Source: Fervidobacterium changbaicum (GTDB lineage Bacteria > Thermotogota > Thermotogae > Thermotogales > Fervidobacteriaceae). Taken from it: a stretch of DNA of 64,000 bases. A program made the position numbers and the translations under genes. The DNA is taken from contig NZ_CP026721.1 in the NCBI RefSeq assembly GCF_004117075.1, positions 496,001-560,000 of the forward strand, written 5' to 3'. Positions 18,878 through 22,115 of the stretch are shown in pieces. Each line of letters begins with the position of its first letter. Positions within the stretch are counted from its first letter, which is position 1. The notes below the pieces were generated by a model, which did no database searches, had not been told where the DNA came from, and saw only the letters and a program-made list of their open reading frames with translations.

Positions 18878-19108
18878 CTAAACGGTCACATCTAAGTTCT
18901 TGCCCTGGAACAATTCACCAGCGATTCGCACGAGTTTTAAGTTCATATCTTGCTGTTTGTAAAATGCGAATTCCAGAGTTCTAAGCATAAGCTCTTTTGC
19001 TTGCTGAACTTGCTGAGCAACATCCGTAGCTGATGCCACAGTTGCAGGTCTTGCAACTGTTGGGGGATAAACTGGACCAAGAACGCTATTCACGCCTGCT
19101 ATGGTCAT
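18878..19108 (-). CDS. small protein of unknown function
   Basis: 76 aa from the ATG at 19108 with GGGGTGA upstream; the longer frame enters the transposon end. A Pro/Val/Ala-rich N-terminus (about 1-28) precedes an amphipathic helix region ('AQQVQQAKELMLRTLEFAFYKQ'). The pattern is loosely like small YjfB-type motility proteins, but I would not assign it. No signal peptide. The IS605-type element ends about 25 bp upstream, so its original promoter may have been displaced. Confidence 0.5.
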   Translation of the reverse strand: MTIAGVNSVLGPVYPPTVARPATVASATDVAQQVQQAKELMLRTLEFAFYKQQDMNLKLVRIAGELFQGKNLDVTV

Positions 19109-19132
19109 ACCCTTCACCCCTACAACTTTATC

Positions 19133-19246
19133 TTGACACTCCCAATCCGCTAAAGGGGATGGGATTCTTAGTAGCTCAAGGCTACCTTCCATGGAGAAGT
19201 GCTTACTCCATGGCTACAAAGGTGTGGCTTAAACCTCACACCTTTG
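19133..19246 (-). ncRNA. putative omega-RNA (right-end guide RNA) of the TnpB element
   Basis: Three hairpins run in series through the tnpB 3' end and right end: a 10-bp perfect stem CAAAGGTGTG/CACACCTTTG (19217-19226 / 19237-19246), an 8-bp perfect stem CCATGGAG/CTCCATGG (19189-19196 / 19206-19213), and a 5-bp stem GTAGC/GCTAC (19171-19175 / 19181-19185). TnpB omega-RNAs are known to come from this place, with the guide just past the right end. The transcript start is not visible. Confidence 0.55.
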
Positions 19247-20391
19247 ACGGGTGCCAATCCCGCTACTACTTGGTTGCTGCCAAGATACCTTTTATATATG
19301 TTTACTGCTCCTACTCCATCCCTGTGATACTCAAACCCACATTTTGCACACTTGTACCTGCGACCTTCTGAGTGATTTTGTTGTCCACACACCGGACACA
19401 TTCTGCTTGTATAACTTTCTGAAATTTGCTCAACTTTTATCCCGTGCACCTGCGCTTTGTACATTATTAGGTTTGTTATTCGTCTAAAGCACCACTGATG
19501 CACTTTTTGCATTGCGTTGTCGTTGCCTTCTACTCTTTCTCGAATGTTTGTGACATCCCCTATCACGATGGTGCTTATTGCTTTTTGATAACACATCCCC
19601 ACAAATTGGCTCGTGATTTTGTGTAGTATATCGTTCAGCTGGTTGCTTAGTTTTCTCAACAGTTTGTTTTTTGCTCTTAGAAGCTTTCTGTACCTTCTTG
19701 AGTCTTTTTTGCATTTGCTGATTGCTGACTGCAGTTTTGCCAGTTCCTTGTTCCTGTAGCGAAGCACCTGGTTTAATGCACCACCGTGATATGAAACGAC
19801 TTCTTTACCATCAAAGAATGTAATGGGGCGGAGTATGCCCAAATCTACCGCTACAAGCTTTGTGTCTTTTTCTTTGCGCTCTTCAATCTTCACCTCTATT
19901 CCAAGGTGAAGATAGTATCTGCCTGCTTCATACACCAACTTGGCTTGTCTAATCTTTGTAGCAGATGGCAGACTTGTTTGAAACTCAAAAGGCTCTCTGT
20001 CTTTGCCTAAGGATAGCCTCAATCTACTATCGGCCAGGAGTTTGATTGCACTATCCTTCCAAATGAAGGGTATGAACTTTTTTCTTTTGTACGGTGGTTT
20101 TGCCTCAGGATTGAACTTAAGGGCTTTAAAATAACCATCGAGTGCTTGGAAGTATAGTTGGACGAACGCTTGTTTTGAGTGAGTATGGATGTTGATGTTA
20201 GACGCCCAACGAAGGATAAACTTTTGTGCGCTATTTTCAGAAAGCCAGAAGTCTTTCTTTTGTTTGATTTTCTTGACAAGGGAAAGAGTTTTATTGTAGA
20301 TTCTTGCTGCAGTTTGGTTGAGTTCGTTGCACATATTATACAATTCAGCAGGAACAGGAACTTTGTATGTTCGTATCACATATCTTGACAC
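19168..20391 (-). CDS. tnpB: RNA-guided endonuclease TnpB (IS605 OrfB)
   Basis: About 407 aa from a GTG at 20391, chosen because GAGGAGGT lies about 10 bp upstream; the frame extends 41 codons further but that part overlaps the tnpA 3' end in another frame. RuvC-I is 'VAVDLGI'; the zinc finger is 'CPVCG'...'CAKCG'; RuvC-III is 'YHRDGVGAVNI'. At RuvC-II the sequence is 'IVIGDVTNIRE': the usual Glu position holds Gly and a Glu comes six residues later. A conserved 'HQW.F' follows. No stop or frameshift, so it is likely functional as a nuclease. Confidence 0.9.
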   Translation of the reverse strand: MSRYVIRTYKVPVPAELYNMCNELNQTAARIYNKTLSLVKKIKQKKDFWLSENSAQKFILRWASNINIHTHSKQAFVQLYFQALDGYFKALKFNPEAKPPYKRKKFIPFIWKDSAIKLLADSRLRLSLGKDREPFEFQTSLPSATKIRQAKLVYEAGRYYLHLGIEVKIEERKEKDTKLVAVDLGILRPITFFDGKEVVSYHGGALNQVLRYRNKELAKLQSAISKCKKDSRRYRKLLRAKNKLLRKLSNQLNDILHKITSQFVGMCYQKAISTIVIGDVTNIRERVEGNDNAMQKVHQWCFRRITNLIMYKAQVHGIKVEQISESYTSRMCPVCGQQNHSEGRRYKCAKCGFEYHRDGVGAVNIYKRYLGSNQVVAGLAPVKGVRFKPHLCSHGVSTSPWKVALSY

Positions 20392-20774
20392 TCTTCTATG
20401 AACCTCCTCATAGTTTCCTCGGATACAGTCCCGGCGCTTCCAACGTAGTATGTTCTGCTCCATAGTCCTTCTTTGGTTCTCAGATGTGGAAATTTCTCCG
20501 ATATTTAGAAACACCTTTGAACAAATTAATAATGAATGCAGGAGAGAGTCTTGGAGGAGCAGAGACGAACAAATGTACGTGGTCTGGCTGGACAGAGAGA
20601 TAAGACAGTGATTTCATGATTTTTAGCCGTTGAGTAGATAATACGTTCAAGCTCGGTTTTGATTTCGTTGAGCAAGAATGGCTTGCGATATTTAGTAATC
20701 CATACAAAATGGTAATTCAAATCATACGTGCTCCAGCGAGTTTTACGAATTCCCTTATCGAACACCATATACAA
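20376..20774 (-). pseudogene. tnpA: TnpA (Y1/HUH transposase of IS200/IS605), frameshifted
   Basis: Three pieces line up as one TnpA of about 133 aa: an N-terminal part in the frame of 20774 ('YDLNYHFVWITKYRKPF'), a middle part with the HUH motif 'QPDHVHLFVSAPPRL' in the frame of 20707, and a C-terminal part back in the first frame ('LWSRTYYVGSAGTVSEE') ending at 20376. The breaks are explained by loss of 2 bp in a CT repeat near 20593-20601 and loss of one A in an A-run near 20493-20495. The helix that carries the catalytic Tyr reads 'MRRFIEECQ', with Phe where Tyr is expected. It is very unlikely to be active. Confidence 0.85.
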
Positions 20775-20888
20775 TTATACTATTACATGCACAAAAAATC
20801 AAATTCTTACTATTCCCCTAAAGGAGAGTAGCTTGCGGGCTTGTTGGTGAACTGTCAAAAAATAATCCTACTTTAGAGCTTTTCGTGT

Positions 20889-22115
20889 TCAGTTCTTTAC
20901 GATTTTAAAAACCGTCTTTTCTTCTGTGCTCTCAACTTTTATCTCCAAGCTCAGCTTTTTGGCTATTTCATTTGCAATGTAAAGTCCCAGACCTGTACCG
21001 TTTGATTTCTCACCCTTGAAAAACCGCTCGAAAATCTTAGGAATAAGCTCTTCAGGTATTTTTTCGCCGTGGTTAACAACTGCAATTTGGTTGTTCTTGA
21101 TGTCTATAAGGTAAGGAGGAGCACCGTGAGTTAGCGCATTATCGAGTAAAATCGTAAAGATTATGCCGAGTCCTTCCTTATTGGTCCTCATTATACCTTC
21201 ACCTTGGACTTCTATGTCAACAGGCTCTGAGTTTCGATTCTTGAATTTCTGATTTATCAGATCCTCGCAAAATTCTCTTAATTCTATATTCTCCTGTGTT
21301 AGATTTTCTACTCTTGCAATTAAAAGCATATTCTCAATTATCTGCTTTATCTCCCTGCTACTCTCTTCTATTGCTTCTACGGATTCTCTTAAAACATTTT
21401 CGTCTCTCAAACCCCAACGTTTAAGCATATTCACATATCCCAGTAACGTTGCTACTGGCGTTCTCAATTCGTGTGAAACAGCGGAAACAAAAGATTCTTG
21501 CGCCTTATACGAGCGTTCTATCCTTTCCATCAGCTCGTTGAATTTTTGAACGAGTTCCTTAAGTTCATAGGTCTTTGGTGTTATATCAACTCTTTTAGTA
21601 ACGTCTGAACCACCAAGAGACTCGATTTGGGATATGAATTCTTTTAACTCTCTCACGTTCTTTCGTGTCAAAAAGTAACTGAGTATAGTCACCCCTAAAG
21701 CGAGAAACAAAATAGCGATAACGAAAAGTTTCCTTATATTTTCAAGAAATCTGATGACTGGTGTTATTTCTTTCCCAATAATCAGACTTTGAACACTGGT
21801 CATATAGAAGTACCTGTTTTCAATTTTCTTTAGTCCCACCTCATTAATTAAGCCTATCCCAAAAGGATCATTAATAACAGCTTTTTCTTCCAAGTCAGCA
21901 ACATAAACATCCCATCTTAACACGATGTACTGCTTGCCAAATGGTGTAGAAATTACAGTTACAAACCTCCCTGGGTTGGAAAAATCCTCCAGAACGGGTC
22001 TCATAGCCATCTTGTAGAAGTATAGGTATGTAACACCGAGAACTAAAGAAACAAGAACAACGGTTGCAATAGTATTTATAAGCGCTAACTTAGTGGTTAG
22101 TTTCAAGCTCTTCAC
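20889..22115 (-). CDS. sensor histidine kinase
   Basis: 408 aa, GTG start. Two membrane segments (about 10-32 and 133-155) flank a ~100-residue extracytoplasmic sensor. Then come a HAMP-like linker, the H-box 'VSHELRTPVATLLGY' (His about 216), the N-box 'DNALTHG' and the G-box 'GTGLGLYIANEIA'. It phosphorylates the response regulator encoded just upstream; the two genes overlap by 26 bp. The stimulus is unknown. The IS605-type element lies directly after the stop codon, so any former downstream partner gene is now separated. Confidence 0.93.
   Translation of the reverse strand: MKSLKLTTKLALINTIATVVLVSLVLGVTYLYFYKMAMRPVLEDFSNPGRFVTVISTPFGKQYIVLRWDVYVADLEEKAVINDPFGIGLINEVGLKKIENRYFYMTSVQSLIIGKEITPVIRFLENIRKLFVIAILFLALGVTILSYFLTRKNVRELKEFISQIESLGGSDVTKRVDITPKTYELKELVQKFNELMERIERSYKAQESFVSAVSHELRTPVATLLGYVNMLKRWGLRDENVLRESVEAIEESSREIKQIIENMLLIARVENLTQENIELREFCEDLINQKFKNRNSEPVDIEVQGEGIMRTNKEGLGIIFTILLDNALTHGAPPYLIDIKNNQIAVVNHGEKIPEELIPKIFERFFKGEKSNGTGLGLYIANEIAKKLSLEIKVESTEEKTVFKIVKN

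Follow-up and report, generated by a model that had tools for sequence, protein, structure and literature searches.

The window analysed here, 64,000 nucleotides of the 2.27-Mb genome of Fervidobacterium changbaicum (G000:C1:496001-560000), contains a gene for a TnpB protein that has glycine where the catalytic glutamate of RuvC-II normally stands, next to a transposase gene that is broken. The locus raises the question of which residue takes the place of this glutamate, whether the 3' end of the gene belongs to a guide RNA, and what a TnpB left without its transposase could still do.

The tnpB gene is on the minus strand (19168..20391, stop codon included), as are the other features of the element given below unless stated otherwise. 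Its reading frame is open from a GTG at 20391 to the stop at 19168 and encodes 407 amino acids, numbered here from that GTG. The product matches the NCBIfam family guided_TnpB (NF040570) with 195.9 bits against a cut-off of 100, and the Pfam families Cas12f1-like_TNB (PF07282) and OrfB_IS605 (PF01385). RuvC-I (VDLG), RuvC-III (HRD) and the zinc finger (CxxC/CxxC) are all intact and canonical, as the initial annotation stated. The RuvC-I Asp183 (codon 19843..19845) is invariant among the 96 distinct sequences that have a letter at this place, and the RuvC-III Asp358 (codon 19318..19320) among the 103 that have one at its own.

The RuvC-II motif reads IVIGDVTNIRE. Its Gly278 (codon 19558..19560) lies 54 residues before Cys332 and does align, as had been noticed, with the Glu of canonical TnpBs and of AsCas12f (MEDLTNIRD); it is Gly in 105 of 105 distinct sequences. 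The initial annotation proposed the Glu of 'IRE', seven residues past Gly278, as the shifted catalytic acid (Glu285, codon 19537..19539). This residue is near the canonical place in sequence; the window protein has Glu there, as do 35 of the 105 distinct sequences. The remaining 70 have Asn (23), Asp (19), Gln (12), Lys (11) or another residue (5 in all, Ser among them), whereas Glu325 (codon 19417..19419), in the context SESYTSRMC six residues ahead of the first zinc-finger Cys, is Glu in all 105. A TnpB open reading frame in locus L111 carries the canonical Glu and the Glu of 'IRE' together, so the latter is not the substitute, and AsCas12f has its canonical Glu together with Asp at the 285 place. 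Catalysis by Glu285 is thus hardly credible, and the residue to mutate in such TnpBs is corrected to Glu325.

These residue counts start from 141 loci, of which 122 gave a tblastn piece and 119 a piece spanning residues 275-340; the resulting 105 distinct sequences include that of the window (repeated in L133) and are not independent, several loci coming from one genome. The 19 loci that gave no piece, eight of them canonical TnpB loci and re-fetched copies, and the non-spanning L125, L131 and L132 are outside the count. Relatives in genome contigs were found by a scan with an alignment, a scan with the single protein having returned none. For the genome loci L050-L129 the fetch relied on the patterns CGF[ES][YW]HRD and QK[ILV]HQW, and residues 278, 285 and 325 lie outside both.

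Presence of Glu325 goes together with absence of the canonical Glu. In the canonical TnpBs of this genome, four in number (L004-L007), Glu occupies the Gly278 place and Pro the Glu325 place. A comparison restricted to open reading frames with the zinc-finger pattern (77 frames, 74 matches, 56 distinct rows) yielded 49 rows with Gly278 and Glu325, seven with the canonical Glu and without Glu325, among them the frame in L111 noted above, and no mixed row. TnpB lineages with a rearranged RuvC-II were already described, as the initial annotation stated. Yoon et al. 2023 (PMC10711439) give the name Ealt to a Glu that stands six residues ahead of the zinc finger. In their account Ealt and Ecan sequences separate clearly, Ealt falls into D-Phi-G and DPG clades, and models of Ealt TnpBs and Fanzors put the Glu at a site that is distinct but consistent. 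Nety et al. 2023 (PMC10278001) describe the RuvC-II-rearranged clades RII-r3 and RII-r5, with one active RII-r5 ortholog. The window protein resembles the D-Phi-G/Ealt TnpBs and the RII-r clades in its non-Glu canonical place, its Glu six residues before the zinc finger and its D-L-G at RuvC-I, and no decisive difference appears in the sections of the two papers compared. As a TnpB family member that lacks Glu at the canonical place, about 50 residues ahead of the zinc finger, has one six residues ahead of it and carries D-hydrophobic-G at RuvC-I, the protein is by its motifs (E-SYTSRM-C with DLG) a D-Phi-G/Ealt TnpB. It is an ordinary, well-preserved member of a described clade, found in a transposase-dead copy, and not a new kind of system.

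A structure was predicted with AlphaFold2 from a 42-row alignment, in which D183, G278, E325 and D358 never vary, unlike E285. The model is of moderate confidence (mean pLDDT 83.0, pTM 0.56). In it D183 lies in strand 179-184, G278 in strand 274-279 and E325 directly after strand 319-324, and D358 opens helix 357-370. At the level of secondary structure only, this placement in a model with pTM 0.56 is compatible with E325 reaching the pair of Asp residues. Residues 286-290 and 292-294 have pLDDT below 50; the low confidence at 286-290, next to Glu285, is a further point against that residue. Among the fold matches, Cas12f and TnpB complexes rank first, with ISDra2 TnpB (8h1j) at Z 21.4, rmsd 7.9 and 338 aligned residues. 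A paper on Fanzor structure places the catalytic Glu on the loop that leads from the fifth strand to the TNB domain, in a statement made jointly for Fanzor, TnpB and Cas12a.

The model also matches mimivirus Fanzor2 (9b0l, Z 18.4, rmsd 8.1, 360 aligned residues). Fanzor and pro-Fanzor proteins share this fold and the Ealt glutamate with the window TnpB. They differ in reading DPG where the window protein reads DLG, and in their link to IS607 as opposed to the IS200/IS605-type tnpA relic found here. The combination of DPG with Ealt that marks Fanzors and pro-Fanzors is absent from the window protein, which has DLG. Two relatives from the same order (L034 and L036) do have VDPG at RuvC-I together with Ealt, the so-called Fanzor fingerprint. 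Their near copies L025 and L041 read DLG, so that one change can suffice to produce DPG with Ealt outside the Fanzor clade.

The gene is part of an IS200/IS605-type element (19133..20853) with its right end at 19133 and its left end at 20853, as located from a second genomic copy and sister genomes. The second copy begins to match exactly at 19133 and two sister genomes have an uninterrupted site, so that the 19133 boundary of the feature first annotated is a genuine element end. On the left side the second copy matches up to 20858. The flanks joined across the element align unbroken in two of eight sister-genome loci (L134 and L135) and as two separate pieces in L137 and L138, while in the remaining four the downstream flank alone aligns. 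Because the joined flanks run unbroken in L134 and L135, the insertion produced no target duplication.

Just outside the left end is TTGAC (20854..20858, minus strand), and its core TGAC (20854-20857) is the target and presumed TAM. Left ends were located by pattern in 17 of 26 loci, the other nine giving none; 16 of them follow TGAC and one follows TTAC, under a pattern that itself demanded T[GT]ACAG, and the 16 cases represent 14 different sites, since L034/L035 and L041/L042 share a site. The boundaries of the multi-copy groups, derived without this pattern, agree with TGAC. The base preceding TGAC varies, and the motif is therefore TGAC rather than TTGAC. The initial annotation had sought the target motif beside a TTGAC-like sequence at the 19133 side; TGAC stands beyond the opposite end, where it is now correctly placed. 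The TTGAC at 19133-19137 (plus strand) was considered as a TAM and rejected, being the complement of the right-end GTCAA.

The right end consists of GAAT, a hairpin and TCAA, that is, a subterminal hairpin with guide and cleavage tetranucleotides. Three features mark the element as IS200/IS605: a Y1 transposase gene (here a broken relic), an insertion site directly 3' of a short motif that was not duplicated, and this right-end hairpin set. In the description of IS608 (PMC5934647) the right end is likewise GAAT-hairpin-TCAA and insertion is 3' of a tetranucleotide without duplication. It differs from the element here in its motif, TTAC instead of TGAC, and in that tnpA is broken here. The insertion parts a small gene (18881-19108) from a histidine kinase gene (20889-22115). 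The ATG of the small gene lies 24 nt beyond the element, and part of this flank is kept in all nine genomes of the host genus in the searched collection.

The tnpA relic (20379..20774) matches Y1_Tnp above the cut-off, split over two frames. Compared with the relative L033, whose TnpA is open, it has lost 2 nt and 7 nt, its span contains two TAA stops, and Phe replaces the Tyr of RRYIEECQ. The earlier view that tnpA is dead is borne out by these changes. From its position near the C-terminus we infer that this Tyr is the catalytic Tyr of TnpA; the Y127 of IS608 sits on the last helix of its TnpA (PMC5934647). One open Y1 transposase gene is found elsewhere in the genome (C1:2159697-2160056). 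The four canonical-Glu TnpBs mentioned above belong to another IS605 group, and one of them lies near an open Y1 transposase gene.

The right end also has the form of an omega-RNA scaffold. Folding, covariation and a covariance model outline an omega-RNA-like structure (19133..19289, with a putative 5' boundary) that mostly overlaps the 3' end of tnpB. Fold and alignment give six hairpins (19269-19284, 19247-19263, 19217-19246, 19189-19213, 19170-19186 and 19140-19164). RNAalifold and covariation add a pseudoknot between TTGGCA in the loop of hairpin 2, inside tnpB (19252..19257), and TGTCAA, the last six bases of the element (19133..19138). RNA positions are numbered from window 19289 (1) to 19133 (157). 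Of three perfect hairpins reported in a row by the initial annotation, two stand, with perfect stems of 10 bp and 8 bp; the third has a shorter perfect core, and there are three weaker hairpins besides.

The minus strand from 19289 to 19133 folds with -58.0 kcal/mol, against -45.1 (sd 3.9) for dinucleotide shuffles, none of 200 being as good (z -3.34). When 20 nt of flank are added, one shuffle in 200 does as well (z -2.93). From 24 of 27 same-phylum right ends (L021, L023 and L042 were omitted as near copies) RNAalifold obtained 33 pairs, 10 of which change on both sides; without prompting, it also brought out the long-range helix that joins the TTGGCA loop to the terminal TGTCAA. Over these 24 ends the six hairpins and the pseudoknot have 94.2% of cells paired, against 37-48% in controls with the partners displaced by 1 to 3 columns. 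Two-sided changes occur in 80 cells against a shuffled mean of 23.5, and no shuffle of 500 is as high. Two of the five covariation measures are weaker: 14 pairs have two-sided changes against 10.6 (reached by 13 of 500 shuffles), and there are 43 further pair types against 39.4 (reached by 34 of 500).

A covariance model built from the 24 ends, with the pseudoknot left out, matches the coding strand in 81 of the 83 loci fetched as relatives (L050-L132, three viral loci included), the weakest best match having an E-value of 2.4e-6. There is no match in L118 and L125, the latter cut at a contig end, nor in any of the four canonical TnpB loci. Among the 80 genome loci (L050-L129) the scaffold is matched in 78, and the fetch patterns lie before it; the matches of the three viral loci are partly by construction, because their fetch pattern GVR..HL falls inside the scaffold-coding stretch. 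The pseudoknot was examined in a second alignment of 62 rows that was not fitted to it. For 46 of the 47 loci that it takes from this search the scaffold match sits at the 3' end of tnpB, and for L080 it sits 1.6 kb away. At pair 38-152, 47 of 51 rows are standard, and all four Watson-Crick types occur. Pair 37-153 is standard in 47 of 51 rows (one with U-A for C-G), pair 36-154 in 54 of 55, pair 35-155 in 57 of 57 and pair 34-156 in 55 of 57, whereas the outermost pair, 33-157, holds clade-wide in no more than 26 of 57. The hairpins have 92.7% paired cells in this alignment, which leans to the covariance model. A search of Rfam 15 gave no match above the gathering score and six matches at E-values up to 5, the best with 18.8 bits; we do not claim the scaffold as unpublished.

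The hairpins might instead be no more than a terminator or single-stranded DNA structures recognised by the transposase. Preceded by GAAT and followed by TCAA, the last hairpin equals the right-end set (GR/CR) of IS608, and for this reason it may also have served TnpA. This reading leaves aside five further hairpins in or beside coding sequence, a pseudoknot that covaries and is laid out like that of the ISDra2 omega-RNA, and the presence of the scaffold with relatives from many phyla. As a full account of the structure it is very improbable, and the last hairpin can serve both roles. An omega-RNA scaffold, with a conserved structure at the tnpB 3' end that closes at the end of the element and includes a pseudoknot, is well supported, as first suggested. 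In ISDra2 the pseudoknot is described as joining positions -6 to -2 with -102 to -106. The ISDra2 TnpB and its omega-RNA (PMC8612924, PMC10097598) are described with a scaffold over the tnpB 3' end, a terminal pseudoknot, a guide from the flank and a TAM equal to the insertion motif, the first two seen and the last two presumed in the window as well; they differ in having the canonical Glu278 and TTGAT, where the window system has Glu325, TGAC and more hairpins. A useful by-product is a guide-RNA model for the whole clade, with six hairpins and a pseudoknot, that is supported by covariation and found with relatives from many phyla.

A 13-nt repeat, TATCTTGACACTC (plus strand), occurs at the right end (19129-19141) and at the tnpA/tnpB overlap (20381-20393). 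Coding accounts for the conservation of the latter place in relatives, and the match is therefore taken as chance. TGTCAAGATA is also able to pair with the scaffold's 5' TATCTTGGCA.

Judged from sequence, the locus has defined element ends, a broken tnpA, an open tnpB with D183, E325 and D358, and a conserved pseudoknotted structure of RNA type. We hypothesise that TnpB would bind an RNA transcribed from the right end and use about 16-20 nt of flanking DNA as its guide. The presumed guide is GATAAAGTTGTAGGGGTGAA (19113..19132, minus strand), just beyond the right end, as in ISDra2. TGAC would be required as the TAM, and double-stranded DNA would be cut by the triad D183-E325-D358. The empty donor joint, TGAC followed by GATAAAGTTG..., would thus be cleaved and the element restored. 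Karvelis et al. propose that ISDra2 TnpB with its right-end RNA cuts the donor joint, and a plasmid study describes such TnpB activity as gene drive. The locus is very probably a transposase-dead IS200/IS605 element that has kept an open D-Phi-G/Ealt TnpB, likely an RNA-guided nuclease whose cutting of the empty donor site protected the transposon. Now that its presumed guide and motif are identified, this Ealt TnpB is open to direct testing. A search of the genome for a second target of the guide (up to three mismatches) returned two matches, one being the locus itself and the other having TGCC for TGAC and one guide mismatch; the reversed control also gave one match.

TldR proteins are domesticated, nuclease-dead TnpBs that have lost the RuvC catalytic acids. 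The window TnpB might likewise no longer cut DNA and be at most an RNA-guided DNA binder, a reading favoured by the dead tnpA and by the position of the element 24 nt ahead of the start codon of the small gene. The acid set of the clade (D183, E325 and D358) is, however, complete and invariant, tnpB is open, and the neighbourhood has no mark of regulatory association that we found. We regard loss of cutting as quite improbable.

The initial annotation suggested that the window TnpB may persist for its own activity. Because tnpA is dead, excision no longer creates an empty site here; the nuclease can therefore act only on empty alleles entering the cell, if it is expressed at all. A stand-alone, homing-like nuclease that, after loss of the transposase, uses Glu325 and the fixed guide GATAAAGTTGTAGGGGTGAA to cut incoming empty alleles of the intergenic site is unlikely. 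If true, an immobile element would persist by repair alone, against empty alleles from gene transfer.

The second copy (L008, C1:1871862-1873211) has no tnpA match beyond its left end, and its tnpB is out of frame through a loss of 7 nt. Comparison of the two copies gives a dN/dS of 0.21 (0.19 for codons 1-370); at the codon level this shows past selection on the TnpB protein and not its present use. Read on its own, the sequence may reflect either a TnpB persisting for its own activity or a recently inactivated transposon. Synonymous divergence between the copies is 0.18 over codons 1-215 and 0.02 over codons 216-370, as would follow from an exchange of the 3' part.

The same genome has a third, weak match to the scaffold model (L146, C1:1310455-1310592; 26.2 bits, E-value 2.3e-5), possibly an end without tnpB. 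A stretch of 60 bases at C1:152068-152127 (L016) is 81% identical to part of the right end and is possibly a decayed end.
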